Assembly (NCBI RefSeq): GCF_014822185.1
Contig: NZ_QVLR01000041.1
Location: 62,001 to 126,000 of the forward strand
Direction of reading: 5' to 3'
Length of the DNA: 64,000 bases
From: Azoarcus sp. Aa7
GTDB taxonomy: Bacteria; Pseudomonadota; Gammaproteobacteria; Burkholderiales; Rhodocyclaceae
The notes under the pieces were generated by a model, which did not search any database, had not been told where the DNA came from, and saw only the letters and a list, made by a program, of their open reading frames with translations. Shown piece by piece: positions 9,138 to 30,311 of this stretch (position 1 is its first letter; each line of letters opens with the position of its first letter). The translations under genes were made by a program, and so were the position numbers.

Positions 9138-9138
9138 T

Positions 9139-11046
9139 ATGGCACACGTCTCCGACCTCATCGCCACGGACATCGAGCAGTACCTCAAGGCGCACGAAAC
9201 GAAGAGCCTGCTGCGCTTCATCACCTGCGGCAGCGTCGACGACGGCAAGAGCACCCTGATCGGGCGCCTCCTGTACGAATCGAAGATGCTGTTCGAAGAC
9301 CAGCTCGCCGCCGTCGAGGCGGACTCGAAGAAGTACGGCACGCAGGGCGACGCGATCGACTTCGCGCTGCTCGTCGACGGCCTCGCCGCCGAGCGCGAGC
9401 AGGGCATCACGATCGACGTCGCCTACCGCTTCTTCTCCACCGACAAGCGCAAGTTCATCGTTGCCGACACGCCGGGCCACGAGCAATACACGCGCAACAT
9501 GGTCACCGGCGCCTCGACCGCGGACGCCGCCATCCTGATGGTCGACGCGCGCAAGGGCATCCTCACCCAGACCCGGCGGCACAGCTACCTGATCAGCCTG
9601 CTGGGCATCCGCCACGTCGTGGTGGCCGTCAACAAGATGGATCTGGTCGATTATTCGGAGAAGGTCTACCGCCAGATCGTCCAGGACTACCGCGTGTTCG
9701 CCGCCCAGCTTGGGCTCGCCGACGTGACCTTCATCCCGATGTCGGCGTTCAAGGGCGACAACATCACGGGCCCGAGCGAGACCATGCCCTGGTATCGCGG
9801 CACCACGCTGATGGGCTACCTCGAAACGGTGGAGGTGGACGATACCCGCATGCAGCGCACCCCCTTCCGCCTGCCGGTACAGTGGGTGAACCGCCCGAAC
9901 CTGGACTTCCGCGGCTTTGCCGGCACGGTCGCCAGCGGCGCCATCGCGCCCGGCGACCGCATTCGCGTACAGCCCTCGGGCAAGGAGAGCACCGTCGCGC
10001 GCATCGTCACCCGTGACGGCGACCTCGACCGCGCGGTTGCCGGGCAGTCGATCACGCTGACCCTCGCCGACGAGGTCGACATCTCGCGCGGCGACGTGAT
10101 CTCGACCGTGGAGGCGCCGGCCGAAGTGGCGGACCAGTTCGAATGCACGATCACCTGGATGCACGACGAGCCCATGCTCGCCGGTCGCCCCTACCTGCTG
10201 AAGATCGGCGCGAAGACGGTCACCGCAACCGTCACGGACATCAAATATCAGGTGAACGTGAATACGCTCGAACACGTCGCGGCCAAGACGCTCGAGCTCA
10301 ACGCGATCGGCGTATGCAACCTCAGCCTCGACCGCCCCGTCGCCTTCGACCCCCATCGGGACAACCGCGACACCGGCGGCTTCATCCTGATCGACCGGCT
10401 CTCCAACACCACCGTCGGCGCGGGCCTGCTGCACTTCGCGCTGCGCCGCGCACACAACATCCACCTGCAGCATGTCGACGTGGACAAGGCTGCGCGCGCG
10501 GCGCTCAAGCATCAGAAGAGCTGCATGCTGTGGTTCACCGGCCTGTCCGGCGCGGGCAAGTCCTCGATCGCCAACCTGGTCGAAAAGAAGCTGCACGCGC
10601 TCGGCCACCACACCTACCTGCTCGACGGCGACAACGTGCGCCACGGGCTGAACAAGGACCTGGGTTTCACCGACGCCGACCGCGTCGAGAACATCCGCCG
10701 CGTGGCCGAGGTCGCCAAACTGATGGTCGATGCCGGGCTGGTCGTGCTGACGGCCTTCATCTCCCCGTTCCGCTCCGAACGGCAGATGGCGCGCGCCTTG
10801 GTCGGCGAAGGCGAATTCGTCGAGATCTTCGTCGACACGCCGCTGGAGGTCGCAGAGCAGCGCGACGTCAAGGGCCTGTACAAGAAGGCGCGGCGCGGCG
10901 AACTGAAGAACTTCACCGGCATCGACTCGCCCTACGAGGCGCCCGAAGACGCGGAGATCCGGCTCGAAACGACGCGCCTGTCGCTCGAGGCGGCCGCCGA
11001 CGCCGTGATCGCGGCGCTGCGCCAGCGCGGAATCATCTCCAACTGA
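9139..11046 (+). CDS. cysNC: Bifunctional sulfate adenylyltransferase subunit 1 / APS kinase
   Basis: A 635-residue fusion. Residues 1 to about 430 are the CysN GTPase with P-loop [26 protein letters not shown] and NKMDLVD, followed by EF-Tu-like beta barrels. Residues about 450-635 are APS kinase with its own P-loop [13 protein letters not shown], the DGDNVRHGL motif and FISPFRSER. Together with CysD the protein turns sulfate, GTP and ATP into PAPS in one complex. Such NodQ-like fusions are frequent where PAPS is needed for sulfation, though they also serve assimilation. Transcribed with cysD and followed 57 bases later by cysQ. Confidence 0.95.
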
Positions 11047-11103
11047 CATCCCGCCGGCCCCGCGCGGGGCCGGCCACCCCGTACCTCAACGGAAGGAAGA
11101 ATC

Positions 11104-11886
11104 ATGAACGCGACATCCGATCACCGCAGCCTGCTCGACGCCCTGCTCCCGGTCGCACGCAGCGCGGGCGCTGCCATCATGCAGATCTACGCGACCGACT
11201 TTGCCGTGCGCGGCAAGACCGACGCCTCGCCCGTCACCGAAGCGGACGAACGGGCCGAGGCCCTGATCCTGCCCGAGCTCGCCCGGCTCACCCCCGACAT
11301 CCCGGTGGTGTCGGAGGAGGAAGCGTCCGCCGGCCGCATCCCGGTCGTGGGCGAGCGCTTCTGGCTCGTCGACCCGCTGGACGGCACGAAGGAGTTCATC
11401 AACCGCAACGGCGAGTTCACCGTGAACATCGCCCTCGTCGAACAGGGCGCGCCGGTGCTGGGCGTCGTGTTCGCGCCGGCCCTCGACCGCCTGTTCGCCG
11501 GCGCGGCCGGACTGGGGGCCTTCACGGAGGATCGGGGCGCACGGCGCAGCATCGCGGCCCGCACCCCGCCCACCGAAGGACTGACCGTGGTCGCCAGCCG
11601 CTCGCACGGCGACGCCGAGGCGCTCGCCGCCTTCCTCGCCGGGCGGAAGATCGCCAGCCAGACCAACGCCGGCTCCTCGCTCAAGCTGTGCCTGGTGGCG
11701 GTCGGCGAGGCGGACGTGTATCCGCGCCTGGGCCGCACGATGGAATGGGACATCGCGGCCGGCGATGCGGTGTTGCGTGCCGCCGGCGGCGTCGTTCGCA
11801 CGCTGGACGGGGCGCCCCTGCGCTACGGCAAGCCGGATTTCGCGAACCCGCACTTCGCGGCCTGGGGCGCGAGCACGGCGAGTTGA
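11104..11886 (+). CDS. cysQ: 3'(2'),5'-bisphosphate nucleotidase
   Basis: A 260-residue inositol-monophosphatase-fold enzyme with the metal-binding motifs EEEAS (near residue 76), DPLDGTKEFI (near 90) and WDIAAGDAVL (near 217). It hydrolyses PAP (the by-product of PAPS-dependent sulfotransferases and PAPS reductase) to AMP, relieving product inhibition. It has a clear AAGGAAG ribosome site. It closes the cysD-cysNC-cysQ unit, and a hairpin terminator follows the stop codon. Confidence 0.93.
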   Translation: MNATSDHRSLLDALLPVARSAGAAIMQIYATDFAVRGKTDASPVTEADERAEALILPELARLTPDIPVVSEEEASAGRIPVVGERFWLVDPLDGTKEFINRNGEFTVNIALVEQGAPVLGVVFAPALDRLFAGAAGLGAFTEDRGARRSIAARTPPTEGLTVVASRSHGDAEALAAFLAGRKIASQTNAGSSLKLCLVAVGEADVYPRLGRTMEWDIAAGDAVLRAAGGVVRTLDGAPLRYGKPDFANPHFAAWGASTAS

Positions 11887-11891
11887 GCGGC

Positions 11892-15361: not shown

Positions 15362-15374
15362 GGACGACACAGCC

Positions 15375-16226: not shown

Positions 16227-16250
16227 TCCCGCCCGTCCCGGAGCCCCCCC

Positions 16251-17383: not shown

Positions 17384-18535
17384 TCACTGCGCCTCGACGA
17401 ACTCCCCGTAGCGATCGCAGTGGAAGTCCGCATCCCCCAGTTCAGCCTGTGCGACGCGGATGCGCTTCAGGAACAGGCCCACGTCGAGCTCGTCCGTGAC
17501 GCCCATCCCACCGTGCATCTGCACCGCCTCGCGGCTGATGCGGTGGGCGGCGTCGCCGGCCTTCCATTTCGCGAGGCTCGCGAGCCGGGCACGGCCGGCG
17601 GCGTCGAGCGTGGGATCGTCCATCGCGGCAAGTCCGGCCATCACCGCGCTGCGCGCCAGGTGGAGATGCGCATAGCACCGCGCCGCGCGATGCTGCAGGG
17701 CCTGGAAGGAGCCGATCGGCACGTCGAACTGCACGCGCGTCTTGAGGTATTCGATGGTCATATCGAAGAGGTTCTGCGTCATGCCCAGCAACTCCGCCGC
17801 AAGGCACGCGCGGCCCCGGTCGAGCGCGGCGTCCAAAGCCCCCCACGCACCACCTTCCTGGCCGATCAGCGCGGCTGCGTCCACACACACGCCGTCCAGG
17901 CGCACCTGCGCATGGTTGCGCGAATCGATCATCCGCATCGGCAACACCTGCACGCCTGGGGCGTCCGCCGGCACGAAAAAGAGGCTCAGGCCGTCGCGCT
18001 CGCCAGGCCCACCCGTGCTGCGGGCGACGACGATGAAGGCGTCCGCGCCCACACCGTCCGCGACGAAGGTCTTGTGGCCTTGCAGCAGCCAGCCGTTGCC
18101 CTGACGCTCCGCACGCAGCGCGGTGGCGGCCGGATCGTGACGCGGTTTCTCGTCCAGAGCCAGCGCGATGCGCTTGTCGCCGGCGATCAGCAGCGGCATC
18201 CATTCGGCCTGCTGCGCCTCGGAACCGCCCAGCTCGATCAGCGTGCCGCCGAGCACGATGCTCGACAGCAGCGGCGAAGCTGAGAGATTGCGGCCGATGG
18301 ACTCGAACACCGCACCCAGTCCCATGCAGCCGAAGGCGAGTCCGCCCAGCGCCTCGGGGAAGGGAATCGCGCTCCAGCCCATGTCGACCATCTCGTTCCA
18401 CAGGGCGTCGTCGAAGCCCTCCGCCGCACCCTCGTCGCGCAAGCGCCGCTGCGCGGTGACGGGGCTGCGGGCCAGCAGGAACTCGGCCGCGGTATCGGCC
18501 AGCAGGCGCTGCTCCTCGGAATACACAAGACTCAT
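17384..18535 (-). CDS. Acyl-CoA dehydrogenase
   Basis: A 383-residue acyl-CoA dehydrogenase-fold protein with N-terminal helices (SEEQRLLADTAAEFL), a weakly kept middle beta-domain, and the C-terminal FAD/helix region with AVQMHGGMGVTDELDVGLFLKR. It is the promoter-distal gene of a leftward operon of beta-oxidation genes and follows another dehydrogenase by 13 bp. In steroid degraders such genes are often paired as unlike subunits, one of which holds the FAD. This may be one half of a heteromer with the next gene (inference). Its sequence alone does not fix the chain length or ring substrate. Confidence 0.85.
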   Translation of the reverse strand: MSLVYSEEQRLLADTAAEFLLARSPVTAQRRLRDEGAAEGFDDALWNEMVDMGWSAIPFPEALGGLAFGCMGLGAVFESIGRNLSASPLLSSIVLGGTLIELGGSEAQQAEWMPLLIAGDKRIALALDEKPRHDPAATALRAERQGNGWLLQGHKTFVADGVGADAFIVVARSTGGPGERDGLSLFFVPADAPGVQVLPMRMIDSRNHAQVRLDGVCVDAAALIGQEGGAWGALDAALDRGRACLAAELLGMTQNLFDMTIEYLKTRVQFDVPIGSFQALQHRAARCYAHLHLARSAVMAGLAAMDDPTLDAAGRARLASLAKWKAGDAAHRISREAVQMHGGMGVTDELDVGLFLKRIRVAQAELGDADFHCDRYGEFVEAQ

Positions 18536-18548
18536 GGCAGCCGACTCC

Positions 18549-19754
18549 TCACTTTCCCTGTTTGCCTTCGGGCAGACCCAGCACCCGCTTGGCGATGACG
18601 TTCAATTGCACCTCGGACGAACCGCCAGCGATGGTCTGCGCGAAGCTCCCGAGCCACGCACGGGTCAGCGCGAGCTCGTTGCCGTCGAAGGCCTCGCCCT
18701 CCCAGCCGAGCGCGCGGTGACCCATCACGTCGAGTAGCACTTCGAGCTTGTCCTTCTCCTGCTCGGAATGGACGAGCTTCATGATCGCCATCACGCCCGA
18801 GACGTCCTGTCGGGCACGCATCTCCTCGCCCATGCGCTGGGCGGTGAGCGTGTACGCGTGCTCGTCCATCGCCATCGCCAGCGCGCGGGCGCGCAGCGCG
18901 ACTTCGGCGCTCGTCCCCGCGTCGGCGGGCGGCAGGTAGCGCGCGGCGACCGACAGCAGATCGACATGGTTCGGCAGGGCGAACTCGCCGAACTTCGACA
19001 TCGCGCGGCGTTCGTGCTGCAGCAGCGCCTTCGCCAGCGTCCAGCCGCCGTTCAACGGGCCGACGAGCTGGCGCTTGGGCACCTTCACGTTGTCGAAGAA
19101 GACCTGGCAGAAGGAGGATTTGCCGCTGATGAGATCGATCGGCCGCGCCTCGATGCCGGGCGATTTCATGTCCACGACCAACAGGCTGATGCCCTGTTGC
19201 TTTGGAACGTTCGGGTCGGTGCGCACCAGCATGTACATCCAGTCCGACTTGTCACCGTAGGACGTCCAGATCTTGGTGCCATTGACCACGAAGTGGTCGC
19301 CCGCGTCGACCGCCGAGGTCTTCAGGCTCGCGAGATCGGAGCCCGCATTGGGTTCCGAAAAGCCCTGGCACCAGCGAATTTTGCCACGCGCCATGGGCGT
19401 GATCAGTTCGCGCTTCTGCTCTTCGGTGCCGAATTCGAGCACCACCGGGCCCAGCATCCAGATGCCGAGGTTGATCTGGGGCGGACGGCAGTGCAGGCGG
19501 CGCATCTCGGATTCGAGCACCGCGTTCTGCTCCTGGCTCAGCCCCCCGCCGCCATATTCGGCCGGCCAGTCGGGGCAGAACCAGCCCTTGTCGCGCATGC
19601 GCTCGAACCACAGGCGCTGGTCTTCGGTCTTGAACTCGACCTTCCTGCCGCCCCACACCAGCTCGCCATCGGGCATCGGCGTGCGCATCGATGGGGGGCA
19701 GTTGGCTTCGAGCCAGGCCCGGGTTTCCCTGCGGAATTCGTCGATCGTCGTCAT
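18549..19754 (-). CDS. Acyl-CoA dehydrogenase
   Basis: A 401-residue acyl-CoA dehydrogenase. N-terminal TTIDEFRRETRAWLEANCP, then QGFSEPNAGSDLASLKTSA (the FAD/substrate strand), FVVNGTKIWTSYG, and the C-terminal GGSSEVQLNVIAKRVLGLP, where family members bind FAD of the partner subunit. The ATG at 19754 matches the usual N-terminus; the open frame extends upstream without similarity. It resembles the FadE17/FadE26-type subunits of actinobacterial steroid metabolism, but a specific name is not justified. The 173-bp gap upstream carries an unusual inverted-repeat element. Confidence 0.87.
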   Translation of the reverse strand: MTTIDEFRRETRAWLEANCPPSMRTPMPDGELVWGGRKVEFKTEDQRLWFERMRDKGWFCPDWPAEYGGGGLSQEQNAVLESEMRRLHCRPPQINLGIWMLGPVVLEFGTEEQKRELITPMARGKIRWCQGFSEPNAGSDLASLKTSAVDAGDHFVVNGTKIWTSYGDKSDWMYMLVRTDPNVPKQQGISLLVVDMKSPGIEARPIDLISGKSSFCQVFFDNVKVPKRQLVGPLNGGWTLAKALLQHERRAMSKFGEFALPNHVDLLSVAARYLPPADAGTSAEVALRARALAMAMDEHAYTLTAQRMGEEMRARQDVSGVMAIMKLVHSEQEKDKLEVLLDVMGHRALGWEGEAFDGNELALTRAWLGSFAQTIAGGSSEVQLNVIAKRVLGLPEGKQGK

Positions 19755-19791
19755 TCGCTGTCCCTGTCTTGCGTCACGCCATAGTGACATC

Positions 19792-19928
19792 AGAGCTTGT
19801 GAAAGAAATCGTCGCGAGCGGCCCGAGTTCGTTCCGAGAAGCGCAGCCGTACAAGGGGTACGGCGACGCATTTGCCAAACTCGACAGGGGCGAAATCGGG
19901 TTACGCAGTAGATTCATTCACAAGCTCT
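19792..19928. repeat. 137-bp element with 12-bp terminal inverted repeats and a central hairpin
   Basis: AGAGCTTGTGAA at 19792-19803 is exactly complementary to TTCACAAGCTCT at 19917-19928. In the middle, GCCGTAC (19846-19852) pairs with GTACGGC (19858-19864) across a 5-base loop. The right arm starts at the stop codon of the dehydrogenase gene. The layout suits a small MITE-like insertion or a structured RNA element between two operon genes. I see no open reading frame in it. Confidence 0.6.
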
Positions 19929-21097
19929 CAGCGCACCGTTCGGGGCATGCCCAGCCCGAACTGCGCGATCAGCTCACGCTGGATTTCGTTCGTACCGCCG
20001 CCGAAGGTCAATGTAACCGAGGCGCGCACTTCGTATTCGAGTTCGCCGAGCAGCGCCGCCGCAGCGGAACCTGCGCGCACGAGACCGCTCGCCCCGACGA
20101 TCTCGGACAACTTGCGCAGGACCTCGATCGCCGATTCGGAACCATAGACCTTGGTCGTCGAGGCCAGCGCGACATCCATGCGGTCGTGTTCGAGGTCCGC
20201 GGCGATGCGGAAATTGATCAGGCGCATCGCCTCCAGGCGCGCATAGCACTCGGCGAGCAGCGACCTCACCCACGGCTGGTCGGTCGCGCGACGCCCCTGC
20301 TCGTCCGGGTTCTTGGCCCACAGGTAAACGCGACGGAAGAGACCCGCGACCTTGTCCGACCACGAACCGAGGCCCAGCCGCTCATGGTTGAGCTGCGCGG
20401 TGATGAGCTTCCAGCCGCCGTGCAGCTCGCCCACCAGCATATCGGCCGGCACGCGCACGTTGTCATAGTAGGTGGCCGCGGTGGGGTTGCTGCAGGTCGG
20501 GATCACGGTGTGCGAGAAGCCCGGCAATTTCGTATCCAGGATCAGGATCGACACGCCCTTGTGGCGCGGACGATCCGAATCGGTGCGGGCGGCGAGCCAG
20601 ATGAAGTCCGCCGCCTCGGCGCCGGAAGTCCACAGCTTGTTGCCATTGACGACGAAGTGGTCGCCTTCGGGACGCGCGGTCGTCTTCAGCGCCGCGAGGT
20701 CGCTGCCGGCGCCCGGCTCGGAGTAGCCGATCGAAAACAGGATCTCGCCGGCAGCGATACCCTGCAGGAACTTCGCCTTCTGCGCGGCGCTGCCGTGCTC
20801 CATCAGCGCGGGGCCGACGGTGCTGATGGTGACGAAGGGCAGCGGCGCACCGGCGATGTTGGCTTCTTCGAAGAAGATCAGCTGCTCGGTCGCGGCGTAG
20901 CCCTGGCCGCCGTGTTCCTTCGGCCAGCCGACCGCGAGCCAGCCGTCGCGGCCCATCTTGCGGATGATGCTGCGGTACTCCTCGCCGCCTTCCTTGCCGC
21001 GCAGGCGCGCGCGCAGCTCGGGCGTCATGAGATCCTGGAAATAGTCGCGCACCCTTCGGCGCAGGGCGTGCTGTTCGGGCGTCAGGTCGACGAACAT
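19928..21097 (-). CDS. Acyl-CoA dehydrogenase, FadE29/ChsE1-like
   Basis: A 389-residue acyl-CoA dehydrogenase. The N-terminus FVDLTPEQHALRRRVRDYF, then GWPKEHGGQGY, FSIGYSEPGAGSDLAALKT, NGNKLWTSGAEAADFIWLAART and TQLNHERLGLG closely follow mycobacterial FadE29 (ChsE1) as I recall it. ChsE1 with ChsE2 forms an alpha2beta2 enzyme that dehydrogenates the 3-carbon steroid side chain CoA ester. The C-terminal FGGGTNEIQRELIAQFGLG is the FAD-contact region. The presence of a FadE28-like gene two genes upstream supports the same heteromer here. Confidence 0.85.
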   Translation of the reverse strand: MFVDLTPEQHALRRRVRDYFQDLMTPELRARLRGKEGGEEYRSIIRKMGRDGWLAVGWPKEHGGQGYAATEQLIFFEEANIAGAPLPFVTISTVGPALMEHGSAAQKAKFLQGIAAGEILFSIGYSEPGAGSDLAALKTTARPEGDHFVVNGNKLWTSGAEAADFIWLAARTDSDRPRHKGVSILILDTKLPGFSHTVIPTCSNPTAATYYDNVRVPADMLVGELHGGWKLITAQLNHERLGLGSWSDKVAGLFRRVYLWAKNPDEQGRRATDQPWVRSLLAECYARLEAMRLINFRIAADLEHDRMDVALASTTKVYGSESAIEVLRKLSEIVGASGLVRAGSAAAALLGELEYEVRASVTLTFGGGTNEIQRELIAQFGLGMPRTVR

Positions 21098-21112
21098 GGC
21101 GATGCTCCTCCC

Positions 21113-22291
21113 TTATGCCGTGCCGAGGATCAGGCCGCTGGTCGGCACGCCGGTGCCGGCGGTAACCAGCACGTTCTCGACGCCGCCCACCTGATTCACC
21201 GCAGTGCCGCGCACCTGGCGCACTGCCTCGGCGACGCCGTTCATGCCGTGGATGTAGGCTTCGCCCAGCTGGCCGCCGTGGGTATTGATCGGCAGCTTGC
21301 CGCCGCGCGCATGATGCCCGGCGCGGATAAAGTCCTTCGCTTCCCCGCGCTTGGCGAAGCCGAACTCCTCCAGTTGCGGCAGGACGAAGGGCGTGAAGTG
21401 ATCGTAGATCACCGCGGTCTGGATCGCGTCCGGACCGAGGCCGGACTGCGCGTACAGCTCCTTCGCGACCACCCCCATCTCCGGCAGGCCGGTGATGTCA
21501 TCGCGGAAGTAGGAGGTCATGATCTGCTGGCCCTCGGTGATGCCCTGGGCACCGGCCTTGATGATGACTGGCTTTTGCCGCAGATCGCGCGCGCGTTCGG
21601 CCGAGGTAATGACCATCGCCACCGCGCCGTCGGATTCCTGGCAGCAATCGAGGAGATGCAGCGGCTCGGCAATCCAGCGCGAGGCCTGGTGCTCTTCGAG
21701 CGTGATCGGCTTGCCGTAGAAGAAGGCTGCCGGGTTCGTTGCGGCGAAGTCGCGCACCGCGACCGCGATCCGGCCGAAGTCCTCCGAGGTCGCGCCGTAG
21801 GTGTGCATGTAGCGCTGCGCGAACATCGCCACCCACGCCGCGGGCGTATGGAAGCCATGTGGCATGTACCAGCCGTAGTTCACGTTCTCGAAGATCGGCG
21901 TCGAGGCGAAGCCGTAGCTGCCCGTGCCGAAACGGTACCAGGAGCGTTCGTTCATCGCGCGATAGACCACGACGACCTTCGCGACACCGGTGGCAACCGC
22001 CATGGCGGCGTGCATCACCGGCGCGCAGGCCGCGCCGCCGCCATGCGGAATCTGCGAGAAAAACTTGACGTTCTTGCAGCCCAGCAGGCGCGCGATCTCG
22101 TACTCGGGCACCTTGTCGACCGAGTACGAGCTGAAGCCTTCGACCTCCGAGGGATCGATCCCGGCATCCTTGAGCGCGGCCAGCGTCGCTTCCATGGCCA
22201 GCCGCAGTTCGGTGCGGCCGGAGTTCTTCGAGAATTCGGTCGCGCCCAAGCCGACGATGGCGGCGCGTCCGGAAAGAGACATGTTTGTCAT
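21113..22291 (-). CDS. Thiolase-fold lipid-transfer protein, Ltp2-like (steroid side-chain aldol-lyase type)
   Basis: A 392-residue thiolase-superfamily protein (AAIVGLGATEFSK at the N-terminus; PINTHGGQLGEAYIHGMNG near the C-terminus). It lacks the usual N-terminal nucleophilic Cys context of degradative thiolases and matches the SCP-x/Ltp2 group. In actinobacteria Ltp2 works with the DUF35 domain of ChsH2 as a retro-aldolase that removes the last side-chain carbons of sterols. Here a MaoC+DUF35 fusion lies in the same operon, as expected for that complex. Substrate here is inferred. Confidence 0.82.
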   Translation of the reverse strand: MTNMSLSGRAAIVGLGATEFSKNSGRTELRLAMEATLAALKDAGIDPSEVEGFSSYSVDKVPEYEIARLLGCKNVKFFSQIPHGGGAACAPVMHAAMAVATGVAKVVVVYRAMNERSWYRFGTGSYGFASTPIFENVNYGWYMPHGFHTPAAWVAMFAQRYMHTYGATSEDFGRIAVAVRDFAATNPAAFFYGKPITLEEHQASRWIAEPLHLLDCCQESDGAVAMVITSAERARDLRQKPVIIKAGAQGITEGQQIMTSYFRDDITGLPEMGVVAKELYAQSGLGPDAIQTAVIYDHFTPFVLPQLEEFGFAKRGEAKDFIRAGHHARGGKLPINTHGGQLGEAYIHGMNGVAEAVRQVRGTAVNQVGGVENVLVTAGTGVPTSGLILGTA

Positions 22292-22310
22292 GTGTGCCGT
22301 GCTCCGGATA

Positions 22311-22730
22311 TCAGGGCAGGACCACGCTGACCGTGCCGGTCACGTGGTTTCCCATCGAGTTCTTGCCCTTCAGCGTCACCTCCACGCTGCGCCTGTCGGC
22401 GTCGCAGGCGCTCACTTCGCCCGAGAAGGTCATCGTGTCGCCGGGGTAGTTCGGCGCACCGAGCTTGATCTTCAGTGATCCGAAGCGGGCGCCGGGGCCG
22501 GCCCATTCCTCGACGAAACGCTGCACCAGCCCACTGGTCGTCAGGATGTTCATGAAGATGTGCGGCGAACCCAGCTTGCGCGCGGCCTCTGCGTCGTGGT
22601 GGCCGGGAAAGTAGTCGCGCGTGGCGATCGCGCCGCCTGCGATCAGCGGCACGGTGATGGGGATCGCCAGCTCCGGCAGGGCCTCGCCGGCGCGCACTTC
22701 GTCAAAGCGTCTGGTGTTCTTCGAGGTCAT
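22311..22730 (-). CDS. MaoC-like hydratase, ChsH1-like
   Basis: A 139-residue single hot-dog-fold protein (ITVPLIAGGAIATRDYFPGHHD, then SPHIFMNILTTSGLVQRFVEEW). It resembles ChsH1, which together with the MaoC domain of ChsH2 hydrates the enoyl-CoA of the steroid side chain. The start ATG lies 28 bp inside the end of the preceding dehydrogenase gene, showing tight coupling. A lone hot-dog of this length normally needs a partner subunit, and the ChsH2-like gene two genes upstream supplies it. Confidence 0.82.
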   Translation of the reverse strand: MTSKNTRRFDEVRAGEALPELAIPITVPLIAGGAIATRDYFPGHHDAEAARKLGSPHIFMNILTTSGLVQRFVEEWAGPGARFGSLKIKLGAPNYPGDTMTFSGEVSACDADRRSVEVTLKGKNSMGNHVTGTVSVVLP

Positions 22731-23835
22731 ATTTCCATCCCAGCGTGTCGTTGTTTGCGAGCCAGTCTCCCAGGCGCGCGAGGTTCGCGGCCGCGCCGCC
22801 GAGCGTGATGCCCAGCGCGCGGCTCCAGTACAGGTAACGGTGGATCGGGTAGGTCAGATCGACGCCGATGCCCCCATGCACGTGCTGCGCCTTGTGGCCG
22901 ACGATGTGGCCGGCCTCGCACGCGAGGTACTTCGTCGCGAGCGCCTCGGCCTGCGCGGGCAGGCCGGTGTCGAGGCGGTAGCAGAGCTGCCACAGCGACG
23001 AGCGCAGCGCTTCGAGCGCGATGTAGGCGTCGGCCATGCTCATCTGCACGGCCTGGAAGCTGCCGATCGTGCGTTCGAACTGCTGGCGTTCCGAGACGTA
23101 GGCGACGGTGCGGCGGATCTGCTCGCTGCTCACGCCCAGTTGCAGGGCGGCCAGCGCGGCGATCGCCCGCGGTTCGAGCCATTCCAGCGCAGCCGGTGGA
23201 AGCAGAGCCCCGGCGGGGACGGCGACGTTGTCGAAGCGCAGGTCGGCGACCGCCTCACCGTGCGTCGATACCCCAGCCGTCTTTGTGATGCCGTCGGCGC
23301 GCAGATCCACCAACACCAGGCGCTGCCCGTCGGGGAACTTCGCGACAATCAATCCGCGGCAGCAATCCGCGCCGAGCGGCAATGCCGCGACGGTTCCGTC
23401 AAGCCTCCAGCCGCGGTCCGCCTCCGTCGCCGTCACTGCAACGCCATGCGCGCTCGCAAGGTCGTCGAGCGCCAGCGTCACCAACATGCGGCTCTCGGCG
23501 GCCGCCTTCACGACCTCCGCGCAGGCATCGCCGCCGAAGCGCGCGAGCGTCGCCGCGGCAAGCTGATGGCGCCACAGCGGCACCTGACCCAGCGCACGGC
23601 CCTGCGCCTCGAGCACGAGCATCAATTCGGTCATGCCGAGCGCGCTACCGCCCGCGTCCTCCGGTAGGGCCAGCGCATGCAGGCCGGTCTCGACGCACTT
23701 TCCCCACAGATCTTCCATGAAGGGCTTGCCGCCGGCGTCGAAGGCGCGCAGGCGATCGTCCGTGCAATGGTCGGCGAACAGGCTCCCCGCCATCTCGGCG
23801 ATGGCGCGCTGGTCTTCGCTGAATTCGAAATCCAT
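22702..23835 (-). CDS. Acyl-CoA dehydrogenase, FadE28/ChsE2-like
   Basis: A 377-residue acyl-CoA dehydrogenase-like protein beginning MDFEFSEDQRAIAEMAGSLF. The middle domain is degraded compared with active homomeric enzymes, and the C-terminus has HVHGGIGVDLTYPIHRYLYW. In actinobacteria FadE28 (ChsE2) is the partner of FadE29 and the pair shares FAD sites. Gene order here (ChsH2-like, FadE28-like, ChsH1-like, Ltp2-like, FadE29-like) uses the same parts as the igr operon. The start at 23835 fits the family N-terminus. Confidence 0.82.
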   Translation of the reverse strand: MDFEFSEDQRAIAEMAGSLFADHCTDDRLRAFDAGGKPFMEDLWGKCVETGLHALALPEDAGGSALGMTELMLVLEAQGRALGQVPLWRHQLAAATLARFGGDACAEVVKAAAESRMLVTLALDDLASAHGVAVTATEADRGWRLDGTVAALPLGADCCRGLIVAKFPDGQRLVLVDLRADGITKTAGVSTHGEAVADLRFDNVAVPAGALLPPAALEWLEPRAIAALAALQLGVSSEQIRRTVAYVSERQQFERTIGSFQAVQMSMADAYIALEALRSSLWQLCYRLDTGLPAQAEALATKYLACEAGHIVGHKAQHVHGGIGVDLTYPIHRYLYWSRALGITLGGAAANLARLGDWLANNDTLGWKYDLEEHQTL

Positions 23836-23846
23836 GTCCCCTCCCC

Positions 23847-24860
23847 TTACGGCGCCACGGGGCGGAAGAGCGGCAGCGTCAGTTCGCCGTCGTCGAAGGA
23901 CTGGAACTCGACCTGCACCCGCTGCCCGATCGCGATCTCGTTGCGCTTGACACCGACGAGGCCGGCGATCAGGCGCACGCCTTCGTCGAGCTCGATCAGA
24001 CCGACCGGATTCGGATAGTCGAAGGGCGGCACCTCGGGGTAGTGCATGACGACGAAGGAGTAGATGCTGCCCTGGCCGGCGGATTCGACGGTGTCCCACT
24101 CGAAGGAGTGACACTTCGTGCACACCGGGCCGGGCGGGTGGCGCAGCGTGCCGCAGCACTTGCAACGCTGGATCAGCAGCTTGCCGGCGGCCGCCCCCTC
24201 CCAGAAGAAGCGCGTGTCGTCGCTCATGCCGGGCTTGGGCCGCTTGATTTTCGGCGCCGCCGGCGCGGCATCCGCTTCAGGCGTGGCGGCAGGCTGTGCA
24301 TTGGCAGGCCGGAACTTGAACACGCGGAACAGCAACTCGCCGACCCTTTCGTCACCTCCACCCTCGTCGCCGCCCGGCTTCTCGCTGAAGAAGCTCATGA
24401 TCAGCGTGACGAAGTAGCCCGTGCCGAGCGCGGTCGTCTTCTGCTCACCCACCGAATCGAGCCGCGTCGTGTAGTACAGCTTCTCGCCGACCTTCACGTA
24501 GCGTTCGAAGGTGAGGTCCGAATTGACCGCCACCACCGACTGGTAGCCCTGCCCCTCCATCAGGCGCAGGACCTCGTAGGGGTTCTCGTCCGTCGAGCCC
24601 GGCGGGTAGTTGTTGGGATGCAGGCCTTCGAGGCACCACGCCTGCAGCATCGCGGGCGGCGCCACGATCGCGCCGTACTCGGTCGTCGCGGCGTAGGCGG
24701 CATCGGTGTAGAGCGGGTTCTCGACGCCCATGATCTCGCACCACTGACGGATCATCGGCGCATTGACTTCGTCCCAGGCATAGACGCGGCCGTACTCGCG
24801 CCCCACCATCGCCCGCACTTCGGTCATCCAGTCCTGTTCGGCCAATTTCGTCTCCAGCAT
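23847..24860 (-). CDS. MaoC-like N-terminal / DUF35 Zn-ribbon-OB-fold fusion, ChsH2-like
   Basis: A 337-residue two-domain protein. Residues 1 to about 165 are a hot-dog MaoC/FAS1-type dehydratase domain (REYGRVYAWDEVNAPMI, ATTEYGAIVAPPAMLQAW). A Pro/Ala linker follows, then a DUF35 domain: a rubredoxin-like zinc ribbon with C-x2-C and C-x2-C (CKCCG...CTKC) and an OB fold. ChsH2 of Mycobacterium has this exact plan. Its first domain pairs with ChsH1 in hydration and its DUF35 part pairs with Ltp2 in retro-aldol cleavage. Start at 24860 chosen by domain start; upstream in-frame sequence is non-homologous. Confidence 0.87.
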   Translation of the reverse strand: MLETKLAEQDWMTEVRAMVGREYGRVYAWDEVNAPMIRQWCEIMGVENPLYTDAAYAATTEYGAIVAPPAMLQAWCLEGLHPNNYPPGSTDENPYEVLRLMEGQGYQSVVAVNSDLTFERYVKVGEKLYYTTRLDSVGEQKTTALGTGYFVTLIMSFFSEKPGGDEGGGDERVGELLFRVFKFRPANAQPAATPEADAAPAAPKIKRPKPGMSDDTRFFWEGAAAGKLLIQRCKCCGTLRHPPGPVCTKCHSFEWDTVESAGQGSIYSFVVMHYPEVPPFDYPNPVGLIELDEGVRLIAGLVGVKRNEIAIGQRVQVEFQSFDDGELTLPLFRPVAP

Positions 24861-24880
24861 CTTAGGGTTGTTCGCTTCAC

Positions 24881-25663
24881 TCAATCGTGCGCGGTGGCGG
24901 CGGCCAGGAAGGCCGGCCGCTCCCCGCCGCCATTGAGCAGGAGGTTGCAGCCGCTGGCATACGCAGCCAGCGGCGAGGCGATGTACACGCAGGCATTGCC
25001 GATATCCTCGGGAGAGGCCAGACGCCCGGCGGGGATGGTCGCCCCCACCGCCGCAATGCCGGCTTCGTCGCCGTAATGCAGGTGCGACTGCTCGGTCTGC
25101 ACGAGGCCAGGGCTGACCGCAACGACGCGCACCTTGGGCGCCCACTCCACCGCCAGCGACTGCGCCAGCGACAGCACCGCCGCCTTCGCGGCACCGTAGG
25201 CCGCCGTACCGGGCGAGGCGCGCAGCGCGCTGATGCTGCCGATGAACACGATCACGCCGCCGCCGTCCTGCTCCTGCATCATCGCGTTGGCAAGCTGCGC
25301 AACGTTGAGCGGGGCGATCAGGTTCAGGCGGATGATCCCTTCGTGGAAGCGCGGCGACGCCTTGTCGGCGAGCGCGAAGGGCGCCCCGCCCGCGTTGTTC
25401 ACGAGCACGTCGAGGCGGCCGTGGCGCTCGCGGATCGCCGCGAACAGGGCCTGCAGCGACTCGTAATCGCGCACGTCGGCGGCGATGAACTCCGCCTGCG
25501 CCGTTCCCACCGCGGGCAGCGCCTCCGGCTCGTTGCGCCCGCACACGATGACGCGCGCGCCGGCGGCGAGGAAGCTGCGCGCGATGCCGAGACCCACGCC
25601 TCTCGCGCCTCCCGTCACCAGAACCACCTTGCCCTCGAAATCGAGGCCTGTCCCGATTGCCAC
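24881..25663 (-). CDS. Short-chain dehydrogenase/reductase
   Basis: A 260-residue SDR with VTGGARGVGLGIARSF near residue 15, NNAGGAPF, a Ser in FIGSISALRAS and YGAAKAAVLSLAQSL (Y-x-x-x-K). The start is GTG at 25663, preceded by AGGAG at the right distance; an in-frame ATG at 25774 would add a non-homologous 37-residue tail that crosses the operator site. It is the first gene of the leftward igr-like operon. Likely job: oxidation of a beta-hydroxyacyl-CoA or ring hydroxyl in the pathway. Confidence 0.83.
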   Translation of the reverse strand: MAIGTGLDFEGKVVLVTGGARGVGLGIARSFLAAGARVIVCGRNEPEALPAVGTAQAEFIAADVRDYESLQALFAAIRERHGRLDVLVNNAGGAPFALADKASPRFHEGIIRLNLIAPLNVAQLANAMMQEQDGGGVIVFIGSISALRASPGTAAYGAAKAAVLSLAQSLAVEWAPKVRVVAVSPGLVQTEQSHLHYGDEAGIAAVGATIPAGRLASPEDIGNACVYIASPLAAYASGCNLLLNGGGERPAFLAAATAHD

Positions 25664-25818: not shown

Positions 25819-26604
25819 ATGACCGAAAACAGTGCCCCGCCCGTCCTGCTCGACAGGCCCGAAGACGGCATCGCCGTGCTGCGCCTCAATCGGCCGCAGG
25901 CGGCCAACGCCTTGAGCCTCGAACTGCAGGCCCTGCTCGCCCAACACTTCATCGATCTCGCCGCGGATGAGAGAGTGCGTTGCATCGTGGTCACCGGGGG
26001 TGACACCGTTTTCGCGGCCGGGGGCGACATCACGAGCATGGCCGGCGTCGGCCCCATCGAGATCACGAAGCGCCACACCGAGCGCGTCTGGGGGCCGATC
26101 CAGCACTGCCCCAAGCCGGTCATCGCCGCGGTGTGCGGCTATGCGTACGGCGGCGGCTGCGAACTGGCGATGCTCGCCGACATCATCGTCGCCGGCGAGG
26201 GCGCACGCTTCTGTCAGCCGGAGATCCGCATCGGCATCATGCCCGGCATCGGAGGCACCCAGCGCCTCGTGCGAGCGGTCGGCAAGGTGAAGGCGATGCG
26301 CATGGCGCTCACCGGGAAACCGATCACCGCACGGGAAGCCTGGACCGCCGGCCTCGTCAGCGACCTCGTTCCCGACGATCAGGTCCTCGACACCGCGCTC
26401 GAACTCGCACGCGCGGTCGCCGCGATGCCGCCGCTCGCGGCCGAACAGATCAAGGAATGCATCCTCCTCGGCATGGATGCACCGCTCGAAACCGCGCTCG
26501 CGCTAGAACGCCGCGCCAACGCGGTGCTGTTCGCGTCGCGCGACCAGAAGGAAGGGATGCAGGCGTTCATCGAGAAGCGACCGCCGAAATTCGAGGGGCG
26601 CTGA
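25819..26604 (+). CDS. Enoyl-CoA hydratase/isomerase family protein
   Basis: A 261-residue crotonase. FAAGGDITSM is the oxyanion-hole strand, YGGGCELAM carries the first catalytic Glu, and CQPEIRIGIMPGIGGTQRL the second, so a true hydratase activity is possible. The C-terminal helices (KEGMQAFIEKRPPKFEGR) are of typical length. It is transcribed away from the igr-like operon from a shared promoter region and runs into the oppositely oriented CoA-ligase gene. It likely hydrates an enoyl-CoA of the same pathway. Confidence 0.9.
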   Translation: MTENSAPPVLLDRPEDGIAVLRLNRPQAANALSLELQALLAQHFIDLAADERVRCIVVTGGDTVFAAGGDITSMAGVGPIEITKRHTERVWGPIQHCPKPVIAAVCGYAYGGGCELAMLADIIVAGEGARFCQPEIRIGIMPGIGGTQRLVRAVGKVKAMRMALTGKPITAREAWTAGLVSDLVPDDQVLDTALELARAVAAMPPLAAEQIKECILLGMDAPLETALALERRANAVLFASRDQKEGMQAFIEKRPPKFEGR

Positions 26605-26688: not shown

Positions 26689-28272
26689 TCACACCGCTGC
26701 AAGCGACCGCAACTCGTTCTTCATCACCTTGTTCGACGCATTGACCGGCAGCGCGGACAAGAAGCGCACGAAGCGCGGCACCTTGTAGTTGGCCATGCGC
26801 TCGCGCGACCACGCGATCAACGCCGGTTCGTCGAGCTGATGACCGGGGCGCAGCACGACGCAGGCGCAGCCGACCTCCCCCATGCGCTCGTCGGGCAACC
26901 CGATCACCGCGACCTGGGCGATGGCGGGGTGCTCGGTCAACGCAGCCTCGATCTCCGCCGGATAGCAGTTGAAGCCGCCGACGATGAACATGTCCTTGAG
27001 GCGGTCGGTGATACGCAGATAACCGCGCGCATCCAGCGTGCCAACGTCTCCCGTATGCAGCCAGCCTTCCGCGTCGATGGTCTCGGCGGTCGCCTGCGGA
27101 TCGGCGAAGTAGCCTTTCATGACGTGGAAGCCGCGCAGGCAGATCTCGCCCGCCTCGCCCGCTTGTAGCGGCCGGTTGTTGCCATCGACGATGCGCACCT
27201 CGGTTCCCGGGATCGCGCGACCGCTAGTGCCGGCGACCGTCTCAGCGTCGTCGGAGGGATCACAGATCGTCGCCAGGCCACCGCATTCGGTCAGCCCATA
27301 AGCCGTCGTGACGACTGAAAAGCCCAGCTCGCGGCGCATGCGCTCGATCAGCACCGGCGGAATCGTCGCGGCACCGGTAACGGCGATGCGCAGGCTGGTG
27401 AGATCCGTCTGCGCCAGCCGCGGGTGGGCCAGCATCGACAGGTACAGCGTCGGCGGCCCCGGCAGCACGGTGATGCGATCTGCCTCGATACGCTGGAACA
27501 CCGCCTCCGCGTCGAACACGGGATGCGGCAGGATCGTCGCGCCAGCGATCAGGCAGGTCAGCCAGCCGGCCTTGTAGCCGAAGGCATGGAAGAAGGGATT
27601 CACGATCAGGTATCGGTCTCCAGCCGCCAGGCCGATCACGCGCGCGTACTCGCTGAAGGCCTGCACGCTGGCGCCGTGGGCGCTCATCACGCCCTTGGGC
27701 TTGCCGGTGGTGCCGGACGTGAACATCAGGTCCGACAAGTCGTCGACCTGCACCGCCGAGGCCCGCACGAGCGCGGCCGCTTCGCTTACCCCGGCTCCGG
27801 GGACGAGGAAATCGGTCCACGTGGATTCGCCCTCGCCGATTCGCCGCCCGGACGCGCCCGGCAGCACGACGAGCCGCTCGAGGCTCCCCGGCCGCAGCGG
27901 CGCCAACATCGCCGGATAATCGACTCCCAGGAACTCCCCGACCACGAACAGCACGCGGGCTCCGCTGCGGCCGATCACGTCCGCCGCCTCCGCGCCCTTC
28001 ATGCGGGTGTTGATAGGCACCATCACCGCGCCGGCGCAATGCACCCCGAGTGCGGCCAGCACCCACTCATGGCAATTCGGTGCCCAGATTGCCACGCGAT
28101 CACCCTGCGCGATGCCCGCCGCCATGAGCGCGCGAGTCACCTGCAGCGCATGCGCGGGCAGATCACGGTAGTCGATGCGCACCGCACCGTCCTCGATCGC
28201 GACGCGCCCCGCATGCGCTTCGGCCGCGTGCAGCAGCAGCCCGGGGATCGTGTCCACCTGCCTACGGATCAT
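26689..28272 (-). CDS. Acyl-CoA synthetase, FadD3-like
   Basis: A 527-residue AMP-forming ligase. Core motif [10 protein letters not shown] near residue 187, [10 protein letters not shown] near residue 325, and the C-terminal [19 protein letters not shown] hinge with a final catalytic-Lys region ([11 protein letters not shown]). The N-terminal stretch ([44 protein letters not shown]) is very like FadD3, which activates the C/D-ring acid HIP left after steroid A/B-ring removal. Named as FadD3-like by pattern only. The gene follows the KSTD-like gene by 12 bp. Confidence 0.85.
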
Positions 28273-28284
28273 GCTCGCGCCTCC

Positions 28285-29994
28285 TCAAGCCGCCGCGGCG
28301 ATGTGATTCGCCGCGACATAGCCGAAGGTCATCGCCGGACCGAGCGTCGCACCGGCGCCCGGATAACCGAGGCCCATCACCGCTGCGGAACAGTTGCCCA
28401 CCGCATACAGGCCGGGGATGGGCGAACCGTCCTCGCGAACCACTTGCGCTTGCTCGTTGGTAAGCAGCCCGCCCTTGGTCCCGATGTCTCCCGCGTCCAG
28501 CCGCATCGCATAGAACGGCCCCTTCTGCACGGGCGCGAGGCAGGGGTTCGGCTTCACGTTGCTGTCGCCGTAGTAACGGTCGAAGACATTGCCTCCCCGC
28601 GCGAAGTCGGCGTCGAGGCCCGTCCGCGCGTACTCGTTCATCTTCCGCGCGGTCTCCTCCAGCCCTTTCGGATCGACGCCGACCTGTGCGGCCAATTCGG
28701 CCAGCGTCGGTGCCTTCCAGTACACCGTGCCCAGCCATTCCTTGCGCAGGCGGCTGTCTGGCATGATTTGCGCCGGCATCAGCGGGCCCATCGCGTAGTT
28801 GAAGCGGAAGCTGGCATCGAAAACCACCCACGCCGGAATCGACCTCGCGCCACTGGCCTGCTGGTCCTTGTACATCGCCTCGACGAACTCGAGGTAGGGC
28901 GCGGCTTCGTTGACGAAGCGCCTGCCCCGTCCATTCACCACGATCGCACCCGGGAAGGCACGCTCGGCGAAGACCCCGCGCGGCTTCTCCTCCTTCGGCA
29001 CACGGATCGTCGGCGCCCACCAGGCCTTGTCGAGCAAGGCGGTGGCCGCGCCGGCCGCAATGCCCGCTTCCAGCGCTGCGCCCATGTTGTTGCCGGGCGG
29101 CGTCGCGCTCCAGCCGGCCTGCGTCGGTTGCGGCAGGTAACGCTCGCGCAGGGTCTGGTTCTGCTCGAAACCGCCGGAACCGAAGATCACGCCGCGCAGC
29201 GCGCGGATCTCCACCTCCCGCCCCTCGCGCACCACGCGCACGCCGCACACTCGGCCGCCGTCCATCACCAGTTCGCGAAACTCGGTCTTCAGCCACAGCG
29301 GCACCTTGCGATCCTGCAGGGAGCGGCGCAACGACGCGATCAGCGCCGTCCCCAGCGCCGCGCGCCGGTCGAACTTCGACTTCCGCCGCCATTTGAAATC
29401 GAGCTTGAAGCGCAGCATCAGGCCCAGCACCATGAAGCGCCAGCCGAACTCGCGCGACATCGCCTTGTGCGCCTGGCGTGCCGTCCACGCGATGCGCCCC
29501 ATCAACAGGTTCGACGGCGCACCCTGACGCAGATGGGGCAACTCGTCGCCGAGCACGCTCGTGTCGAAAAGCTCCGGGTCCAGCGTCCGCCCCCCGGGCA
29601 GGGAGCCCGGCAAGTGCTGGTAGTAGTCGGGATACTTCTCCGCCACCGCATAGCGCACACGGCTCTTCGCCTCGAGGTGCCGGATCATCTTCGGCGCGTT
29701 GTCGAGATAAGCCCTCAGCCGCGTTTCCGGCACGACTCCCCCGGTCGCGGCCTTCAGGTACTGAAGCGCCTTGTCGTAGCTGTCCTTGCCGCCCTTAGCC
29801 GCGAAGTGATGATTGTTCGGGATCCAGATCCCCCCGCCGGAGATCGACGAGGTCCCACCGTACTTGTCGCTCTTCTCGACGACCAGCACCGACAGGCCGT
29901 TGTCCGCTGCAACCAGCGCGGACGTGAGCGCCCCCGCGCCGGAACCCACCACGATCACATCGAACTGATTTTCACCCTGCACATTGCCCGCCAC
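28285..29994 (-). CDS. 3-ketosteroid-delta1-dehydrogenase-like FAD flavoprotein
   Basis: A 569-residue flavoprotein of the fumarate-reductase/KSTD superfamily. The N-terminal FDVIVVGSGAGALTSALVAADNG binds FAD and is followed by SDKYGGTSSISGGGIWIP. The C-terminal GDIGTKGGLLTNEQAQV, GLYAVGNCSAAVMGLGYPGAGATLGPAMTFGYVAA block is the KSTD signature. KSTDs introduce the 1,2-double bond into 3-ketosteroid ring A; related members act on other cyclic ketones. It is the first gene of a two-gene leftward unit with the FadD3-like ligase, just inside the island boundary. Confidence 0.85.
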   Translation of the reverse strand: MAGNVQGENQFDVIVVGSGAGALTSALVAADNGLSVLVVEKSDKYGGTSSISGGGIWIPNNHHFAAKGGKDSYDKALQYLKAATGGVVPETRLRAYLDNAPKMIRHLEAKSRVRYAVAEKYPDYYQHLPGSLPGGRTLDPELFDTSVLGDELPHLRQGAPSNLLMGRIAWTARQAHKAMSREFGWRFMVLGLMLRFKLDFKWRRKSKFDRRAALGTALIASLRRSLQDRKVPLWLKTEFRELVMDGGRVCGVRVVREGREVEIRALRGVIFGSGGFEQNQTLRERYLPQPTQAGWSATPPGNNMGAALEAGIAAGAATALLDKAWWAPTIRVPKEEKPRGVFAERAFPGAIVVNGRGRRFVNEAAPYLEFVEAMYKDQQASGARSIPAWVVFDASFRFNYAMGPLMPAQIMPDSRLRKEWLGTVYWKAPTLAELAAQVGVDPKGLEETARKMNEYARTGLDADFARGGNVFDRYYGDSNVKPNPCLAPVQKGPFYAMRLDAGDIGTKGGLLTNEQAQVVREDGSPIPGLYAVGNCSAAVMGLGYPGAGATLGPAMTFGYVAANHIAAAA

Positions 29995-30066
29995 GTCAGC
30001 ACCTCCCGAAGGGTCGTTCGCGGTGCCTGCAAGACGAGGGGCAAACCAACCCCAAGGGCACCGTCA

Positions 30067-30082
30067 TCGTCCGGGATGATGG
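30067..30082. promoter_or_regulatory. Weak third copy of the operator-like palindrome
   Basis: TCGTCCGGGATGATGG keeps the left half-site TCGTCCG of the 2247-2262 palindrome (10/16 overall) and lies 73 bp upstream of the KSTD-like gene. It could be chance; listed because all three occurrences precede genes of the same catabolic theme. Confidence 0.3.
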
Positions 30083-30200
30083 ACAGCGGGGGCGGGAACA
30101 TCATCGTCAATGCGGACTATGACGAGGCGCAACGAATGGGGATGAAGGACCAGCCTCCCCCGGGCGACGTCGCGTACAAAACAGTTCCAGGAAAATAAAA

Positions 30201-30222
30201 AAGCCCTGATAAATCAGGGCTT
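30201..30222 (-). terminator. Hairpin terminator of the former tRNA-Ser gene
   Basis: AAGCCCTGAT and ATCAGGGCTT form a 10-bp stem; read leftwards it ends in a T run. Its place just past the tRNA 3'-end remnant is that of a normal tRNA terminator. Confidence 0.8.
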
Positions 30223-30234
30223 TGTCTGGCATTC

Positions 30235-30251: not shown

Positions 30252-30311
30252 AGCTCCAATTTGCTTTGCAAGCATCTGAATAATAAGTGATTTTTTATTC
30301 AGACCTAAGCA

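Follow-up and report, generated by a model that had tools for sequence, protein, structure and literature searches.

In the betaproteobacterium Comamonas testosteroni TA441, removal of a propionyl side chain from steroids has been assigned, through mutants, to ORF40 (MaoC-DUF35), ORF41 (ChsE1), ORF42 (ChsH1), ORF43 (Ltp2), and ORF44 (ChsE2), and the region after ORF44 is described as unlike that of Stutzerimonas stutzeri Chol1 (PMC12502768), where rising locus tags give the order Shy2, Scd2B, hydratase, Sal2, and Scd2A, then Scd1A, Scd1B, and StdA1 (PMC8399759). Bile-acid degradation has been reported for Azoarcus and Zoogloea strains, and the denitrifying betaproteobacterium Azoarcus sp. Aa7 has been described as possessing several steroid clusters along with the 9,10-seco and the 2,3-seco pathways (PMC8399759). 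The genome of Azoarcus sp. Aa7 (5.39 Mb, 107 contigs) contains an eight-gene run that, judged by its sequence, can be assigned with high confidence as a steroid C17 side-chain operon. The run lies in a stretch of 64,000 nucleotides (hereafter the window), positions 62001-126000 of the 147 kb contig C41; the remaining contigs of the genome were covered by searches only.

Enzyme families and catalytic residues of the operon

The run is on the minus strand at 17384-25663, from an SDR gene starting at 25663 to the last acyl-CoA dehydrogenase gene ending at 17384, and comprises sdrA, chsH2, a fadE28-like gene, chsH1, ltp2, acdA, acdB, and acdC in that order, with intergenic gaps of 20, 11, -29, 19, 15, 173, and 13 bases. 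Due to the 173-base gap that precedes it, acdB could form a separate unit with acdC; scans for promoters and terminators returned signals no better than in shuffled sequence. The sequence-only reading of this DNA had placed FadE28-, FadE29-, ChsH1-, ChsH2- (MaoC+DUF35), and Ltp2-like genes in one operon with two further acyl-CoA dehydrogenases and an SDR; the coordinates match to the base and the domains agree, with acdB, acdC, and sdrA as the additional genes.

The core proteins were each compared with all solved chains in the PDB, and domains were called by Pfam and NCBIfam cut-offs. The Ltp2-like retro-aldolase, predicted to act on a three-carbon (C3) side chain (21113..22291), exceeds the cut-off of PRK07855 (689 bits against 469) and its best solved chain is 6ok1_A at 553 bits, with the runner-up at 165. 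ChsH2 (23847..24860), with a non-catalytic MaoC half and a zinc-ribbon/OB (DUF35) half (FAS1_DH_region, zf-ChsH2, and OB_ChsH2_C), matches 6ok1_B, the DUF35 partner, at 139 bits and 4wnb_A and 4w78_A at 94 and 93 bits, the next match being 55, and ChsH1 (22311..22730) matches 4w78_B and 4wnb_B at 105 bits, followed by 40. The FadE28/ChsE1-like subunit (22702..23835) matches 6wy8_A (Tcur3481) at 246 bits and 4x28_D at 155, then falls to 66, and the FadE29/ChsE2-like acdA (19928..21097) matches 6wy8_B (Tcur3483) at 402 bits and 4x28_A at 387, then falls to 136. The PDB entries are named ‘Tcur3481/Tcur3483’ (6wy8) and ‘acyl-CoA dehydrogenase’ (4x28), and are taken here to be steroid side-chain dehydrogenases of Thermomonospora and Mycobacterium. 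With 6wy8 identified in this way, similarity searching puts a steroid side-chain enzyme as the best solved match of all five core proteins, with wide margins. The first gene of the operon, sdrA (24881..25663), encodes an SDR oxidoreductase of PRK07856 (392 bits against a cut-off of 255).

The catalytic residues were compared with those of characterized enzymes. The catalytic pair of Ltp2 consists of Tyr294, in the motif YDHF, and Tyr344, while Sal has YDCY and a Gln (PMC12329534). The window Ltp2 has YDHF from residue 296 and Tyr346, such that the C3-aldolase catalytic pair is intact, and a Sal-like protein of this genome has YDCY and Gln. For the ChsH1-ChsH2 hydratase, the His/Asp dyad has been described as confined to ChsH1 (PMC11321319). 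In alignments the window ChsH1 has Asp39-x4-His44 and ChsH2, which carries CxxC pairs at residues 233 and 247, lacks the D-x4-H motif, predicting a heteromeric MaoC hydratase of a catalytic ChsH1 and a non-catalytic, DUF35-fused ChsH2. Acyl-CoA dehydrogenases use an active-site Glu as the catalytic base; alignment indicates that it is kept (HER) in acdA and acdB and missing from the FadE28-like protein and acdC. With two Glu-bearing and two Glu-less subunits, two mixed pairs are likely, each a ChsE1-ChsE2-type heteromer with the catalytic Glu on one subunit. Identity is 31-32% between acdA and acdB and between the FadE28-like protein and acdC.

In a tree of 42 Ltp2-related rows, in which the Aromatoleum diolicum row is a paralogue and not its Ltp2 and TcLtp2 lies outside the sample, the window Ltp2 falls inside a 30-row Ltp2 clade (support 99/98) along with Ltp2 from Nocardia farcinica, Nonomuraea, and Proteobacteria. 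The Sal clade (100/100), the other thiolase-like paralogues of this genome, and some long branches fall outside. Clustering with non-steroid families, which had been named as the outcome that would overturn a steroid assignment, is seen neither in the solved-structure matches nor in this tree. Three rows inside the Ltp2 clade have YDAF. L106, L107, and L108 form a sister clade of Ltp2 in which YDAF replaces YDHF and the second Tyr is retained. A gene at C30:30861-32024 was considered as a second Ltp2 and was ruled out by its YDCF and His and by its separate clade. This YDCF/His thiolase-like protein, in a clade of its own, adjoins a free-standing zinc-ribbon/OB protein (C30 30415-32024), and the same pair is present in a genome of the same genus (99%).

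Distribution, predicted reactions and alternative substrates

Searching the GTDB species collection with ChsH2 yielded 131 relatives, and the 80 best loci were analysed. For the gene-order counts, matches below 40% identity were dropped and genes matching no window query were not counted. The five-gene core chsH2-fadE28-chsH1-ltp2-acdA has the same order in 78 of the 80 loci and the eight-gene order is kept in 72, which speaks against a chance arrangement; the eight exceptions are short contigs (L033, L096, and L097) or loci without sdrA and/or acdB/acdC (L022, L088, L092, L094, and L095). In 73 of 80 loci the core is succeeded by acdB and acdC, and echA, an enoyl-CoA hydratase gene on the plus strand of the window (25819..26604; PRK08138, 414 bits against a cut-off of 355), is divergent from the operon in 71. 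The closest named ChsH2 relatives are from Aromatoleum toluolicum (95% in the best segment), A. toluclasticum (94%), A. evansii (92%), and A. diolicum (87%), and the ChsH2 of Thauera, Parazoarcus, and Zoogloea are ~80% identical to that of the window. Hosts among the listed loci include Aromatoleum, Thauera, Zoogloea, Pseudomonas, Marinobacterium, Endozoicomonas, Paraburkholderia, and Pandoraea.

An Ltp2 over the cut-off occurs in nine of 150 sampled genomes of the family, including that of strain Aa7. The operon appears to move between lineages, given its patchy presence and a plasmid copy in Vibrio: the plasmid pVa1 of the fish-associated Vibrio alfacsensis (L163, 10777-19713) carries a hydratase, an SDR, ChsH2, an acyl-CoA dehydrogenase, ChsH1, an Ltp2 85% identical to that of the window, and three acyl-CoA dehydrogenases in one run. 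This plasmid is typed as non-mobilizable and also holds electron-transfer flavoprotein and ferredoxin reductase genes, and Ltp2 is present on two further V. alfacsensis plasmids. Several over-cut-off copies of Ltp2 occur in some genomes of the family (six in G469, five in G368, and three in G424), which suggests several side-chain variants per genome, and Thauera terpenica has a second ChsH2-ChsH1-Ltp2 set (G008:C70 ~136000-141000), 37-60% identical to that of the window and beside a distant DUF1214-like gene.

The operon coincides with genes for steroid-ring degradation. Among 49 carrier genomes searched from the 80 loci (L032 and L069-L098 are outside this count), KshA was present in 48, one of the matches being a fragment at a contig start, and the exception was a metagenome-assembled genome (MAG) of Zoogloea. 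Across 300 genomes of the order, Ltp2 exceeded the cut-off in three and KshA was found (E 1e-20 or better) in four, in both cases including the Aa7 genome; the three with Ltp2 are all among the four with KshA, which leaves one genome with KshA and no Ltp2. With the Aa7 genome excluded, the association is 2/2 against 1/297 (Fisher P = 6.7e-5), a value that serves as a guide only because related species are not independent. KshA and an HsaC/TesB extradiol dioxygenase are markers of aerobic 9,10-seco steroid degraders. In the Aa7 genome, KshA is on contig C30 (KshA_C, 205 bits against a cut-off of 23.3, with a Rieske domain), and 4 kb away is a gene of the ferredoxin-reductase type, possibly KshB. 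Sal-like, Shy-like, and HsaC-like genes are on C41, ~64 kb to the left of ltp2, and the Shy-like protein has a zinc ribbon and OB fold followed by MaoC, which is the domain order of Shy. The presence of Sal (YDCY) and Ltp2 (YDHF) in one genome provides predicted aldolases for both five-carbon and three-carbon chains. The sequence-only reading had predicted degradation of a sterol, bile acid, or similar branched polycyclic compound, and the solved-structure matches, the Ltp2 tree, the KshA and HsaC-like genes of this genome, and the KshA of 48 of the 49 carriers searched all agree with a steroid.

It had also cited KSTD-like and FadD3-like neighbours. On the minus strand, 12 bases apart, a FadD3-family CoA ligase (26689..28272) and a flavoprotein resembling 3-ketosteroid delta-1-dehydrogenase (KSTD; 28285..29994) make up a second unit (26689-29994), and of these the ligase passes its family threshold (PRK07656, 735 bits against 657), while the KSTD-like protein does not and finds its best solved match in 7p18_A, ‘3-oxosteroid 1-dehydrogenase’, at 721 bits. 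The latter protein could act as a 3-oxosteroid 1-dehydrogenase, though it stands outside the NCBIfam model. Both are looser companions of the operon, with a KSTD-like gene (at least 50% identity) in the fetched stretch of 38 of 80 loci and a FadD3-like gene in 13. Straight after the KSTD-like gene, G+C falls from ~0.67 to 0.59 across an inserted stretch that borders the steroid region (30001-44542) and contains a HipA-type gene (30504-31730), a small helix-turn-helix gene (31727-32086), and IS66 transposase genes (42156-43685 and 44090-44542).

From the gene content and order, the family placements, the catalytic residues, and the co-occurrence with ring genes, we infer a pairing of subunits, an order of reactions, and a substrate. 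The most likely substrate is a steroid bearing a carboxylic side chain at C17, a bile acid or similar steroid acid. The acdB/acdC pair would probably desaturate the preceding five-carbon side chain, after which Sal and Shy, encoded 64 kb away on C41, would release acetyl-CoA. On the C22 acid, whose side chain has three carbons, the FadE28-like/acdA pair would desaturate the CoA ester and ChsH1-ChsH2 would add water to the double bond at C17. Ltp2, docked on the DUF35 portion of ChsH2, would split the tertiary alcohol in a retro-aldol step, giving a 17-ketosteroid and propionyl-CoA. The KSTD-like and FadD3-like genes would serve ring steps.

A bile-acid-type side chain is the likeliest because the genome has no cytochrome P450. 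There were zero PF00067 matches in the whole genome, and thus no Cyp125/Cyp142-type P450, in a search that was positive in seven of 14 control genomes, and P450-led sterol degradation was rejected on this ground. A sterol (cholesterol or phytosterol) could still be the substrate if its isoprenoid chain were opened by an S25DH-type molybdenum hydroxylase in place of a P450. The KSTD-like protein is closest to 7p18_A, presumably the Sterolibacterium enzyme, and the Aa7 genome has one full-length class II DMSO-reductase alpha subunit (C34:4725-7583). This subunit, at 871 bits, is below the family cut-off of 984.75 and could equally be an ethylbenzene or p-cymene dehydrogenase, enzymes that are usual in Aromatoleum. 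Sterolibacterium uses such molybdenum hydroxylases (PMC7411048, PMC6016249) and also has Shy, yet the characterized Sal/Shy pair acts on bile acids and excludes the flat rings of cholesterol (PMC12329534). The missing P450 also counts against a sterol, whose degradation is considered unlikely. A xanthine-dehydrogenase-type molybdoenzyme is also present near steroid-type genes on C30 (18516-22347), and a role in anaerobic steroid steps is possible for the C30 and C34 molybdoenzymes.

It is similarly improbable that the acdB/acdC pair works on a ring C/D intermediate rather than on the five-carbon side chain. The similarity of both proteins to the side-chain pair is weak: acdB, with its start set at 19754 (18549..19754; the longest frame opens at 19871), has 6wy9_A (Tcur3483) as its top solved chain at 156 bits, and acdC (17384..18535) has 6wy8_A at 134 bits, with ordinary dehydrogenases close behind. 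A ring C/D role would also fit the gap before acdB and three Endozoicomonas loci (L088, L092, and L094) in which the fetched stretch has the core without acdB/acdC. Nonetheless, the two genes stand behind the core in most loci, as counted above, and are placed as Scd1A and Scd1B are in Chol1, making them candidates for Scd1A-like and Scd1B-like subunits. The least probable alternative by far is that the set degrades a non-steroid branched cyclic compound, such as a terpenoid or naphthenic acid, through the retro-aldol cleavage of a tertiary alcohol set out above: this reaction is chemically general, and the carriers include many Pseudomonas and Thauera terpenica 58Eu, which was isolated on a terpene, but steroid enzymes are the best matches of the five core proteins, Ltp2 groups within its own clade and coincides with KshA in the order sample, and a non-steroid specificity, suspected from the many fluorescent Pseudomonas carriers, was dropped because 48 of the 49 searched genomes have KshA.

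Several observations weigh against a bile-acid-type side-chain operon. The KSTD-like protein scores 578 bits, under the NCBIfam 3-oxosteroid 1-dehydrogenase cut-off of 788, and the HsaC-like dioxygenase (C41:15657-16619) scores 263 bits, under the HsaC cut-off of 450. Three further genomes sampled from the same genus have no Ltp2 over the cut-off, and the operon is for this reason considered an accessory trait. L110, a long branch outside the Ltp2 clade, also has YDHF and the Tyr, so that the motif by itself is no proof of Ltp2. Given the weak matches of acdB and acdC to C3-side-chain enzymes, their role on the five-carbon chain rests on position, and both sdrA and echA are conserved with the operon yet have no assigned step. 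Lastly, the bile-acid inference is weakened by Shy also being present in the cholesterol degrader Sterolibacterium (PMC12329534).

The adjoining F420, PAPS and sulfotransferase genes

Beyond the operon, the main lead is a plus-strand block at 2354-17288 that ends 95 bases from acdC and is linked to the operon in Thauera, Aromatoleum, and Pseudomonas. Its order is npdG, cofE, cofD, cofGH, cysD, cysNC, cysQ, tetR, sulfotransferase, DUF1214-like, SDR, and LLM. The genes for coenzyme F420 (NpdG/Fno, 2354-3034; CofE, 3036-3812; CofD, 3767-4759; and CofGH, 5696-8146) and those for the supply of 3'-phosphoadenosine 5'-phosphosulfate (PAPS), CysD, CysNC, and CysQ (8238..11886), are over their NCBIfam cut-offs. 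They are followed by TetR (12060-12722), the sulfotransferase (12733-13917), the DUF1214-like protein (13910-15361; 23.4, slightly below the Pfam cut-off of 25), the SDR (15375-16226), and an F420-type LLM oxidoreductase (16251-17288; TIGR03617, over the curated cut-off). The TetR gene at 12060 was considered as a KstR-type regulator and rejected (19 bits, the cut-off being 280). The window frames that were scanned contained no CofC, and one copy is on C30. Second sets of F420 genes are present elsewhere in the genome, with npdG, cofC, and cofGH on C30 (64213-67958) and cofD on C103 (31893-32801).

Carriers of DUF1214 and cofD were counted in 31 of the 80 loci. Close DUF1214 relatives (80-95% identity over 466 to 483 of 483 residues) occur in seven of these 31 carriers and in none of the 299 other genomes of the order, where there were three weak matches of 30-35%. 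The seven carriers with a close DUF1214 relative all have cofD, compared to three of the 24 without; cofD is present in 21 of 300 genomes of the order, that of Aa7 included, and so is no rarity there. In six of the seven carriers the two genes share a contig, separated by 4.8 to 24.2 kb (9.2 kb in Aa7); in A. toluolicum each lies close to the end of a different contig. With contigs matched by their lengths, the cassette and the side-chain operon are on the same contig in all seven carriers, or eight linked genomes with Aa7, and the DUF1214 gene is 9 to 37 kb from chsH2 in six and directly adjacent, as in the window, in A. toluolicum. Thauera sp. 28, Thauera sp. 2A1, and a proteobacterial MAG preserve the full order from npdG to LLM, and T. 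butanivorans preserves it except for the SDR. In T. terpenica the cassette is split into two separate halves, with npdG and cofGH missing from the stretch read, and Pseudomonas linyingensis has Sal-Shy-cysD-cysNC-cysQ-tetR-sulfotransferase-DUF1214-LLM, without the SDR and with the F420 genes facing. Four of the seven being Thauera and one the MAG, they cannot be taken as seven independent events, but the recurrence in Pseudomonas does carry weight.

The cassette was not found within 20 kb of the Nocardia and Nonomuraea Ltp2 loci. Six stretches with a weak DUF1214 match (L119-L121 and L123-L125) held one sulfotransferase-like gene with cysD, one sulfotransferase-like gene, and one LLM-like gene, with none of these in the other three. 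Ten of 22 plasmid records with DUF1214 were opened, nine of them annotated, and a sulfotransferase is within 6-8 kb of DUF1214 in six of the nine and absent from three. The six pairs comprise three that directly adjoin, one with a gene between, and two that are 3-4 kb apart. PAPS genes are beside DUF1214 on plasmids of Tsukamurella (cysD and cysC) and Paraburkholderia sprentiae (cysQ, cysD, and cysN), and on a Novosphingobium resinovorum plasmid an LLM-class F420-dependent gene is two genes on. The DUF1214-sulfotransferase pair may have a use wider than steroids.

A list of M. tuberculosis cholesterol genes includes Rv3520c (coenzyme F420-dependent oxidoreductase), Rv3529c, Rv3530c (possible oxidoreductase), and Rv3531c (PMC6429209), and genes for CofC, CofD, and CofE adjoin steroid genes in Sterolibacterium (PMC6678751); the main text of an F420 review contains neither the word steroid nor the word cholesterol (PMC8498797). 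In the literature searched, nothing named DUF1214 together with a sulfotransferase, and, judged by titles and the openings of abstracts, none of the papers listed, with subscription papers mostly outside the search, dealt with F420 or PAPS in bacterial steroid breakdown. Of the mycobacterial genes, Rv3529c is presumably sulfotransferase-like. It is tentatively proposed, with doubt outweighing confidence, that 2354-17288 is a previously undescribed steroid-processing module coupling sulfonation to F420 chemistry, and the chemistry itself is a guess. CysD-CysNC would make PAPS and CysQ would clear 3'-phosphoadenosine 5'-phosphate, the sulfotransferase would sulfate a steroid hydroxyl to make it a leaving group, elimination or oxidation of the sulfated steroid would be aided by the DUF1214-like protein and SDR, and the LLM would reduce or oxidise the product with F420 supplied by CofD/E/GH and NpdG. 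The block offers a testable role for F420 in Proteobacteria and a first handle on DUF1214-sulfotransferase pairs.

Comparison with known side-chain systems

Compared with the mycobacterial igr operon, taken as chsE1 to ltp2, the window has the same five enzyme parts, with catalytic residues as described for the actinobacterial enzymes. The actinobacterial loci of Nocardia and Nonomuraea differ in gene order, and their proteins are 39-66% identical to those of the window (31-33% for the FadE28-like protein). The igr operon presumably also contains cyp125, and in this it differs from a genome that lacks any P450. The sequence-only claim of a full igr parts list consequently stands for chsE1 to ltp2, the usage of igr in the TA441 article (PMC12502768), and fails for cyp125.

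The proteobacterial systems are nearer. ORF40-44 of TA441 are the same five genes in an order that is equal by function, and the window operon continues with two further dehydrogenases (PMC12502768). The Chol1 bile-acid cluster has, by locus tags, an order equal to that of the window, with Scd1A and Scd1B behind the core; it differs in one unnamed locus tag between Scd2A and Scd1A and in the CoA ligase StdA1 that comes next, whereas the window operon stops at acdC (PMC8399759). Since the gene sets of TA441 and Chol1 match, the Aa7 operon belongs to an already known kind, one whose core gene set has been proven by mutants in a betaproteobacterium (PMC12502768), and it places a full bile-acid-type side-chain gene set, as predicted from homology, in Aromatoleum- and Thauera-type bacteria.

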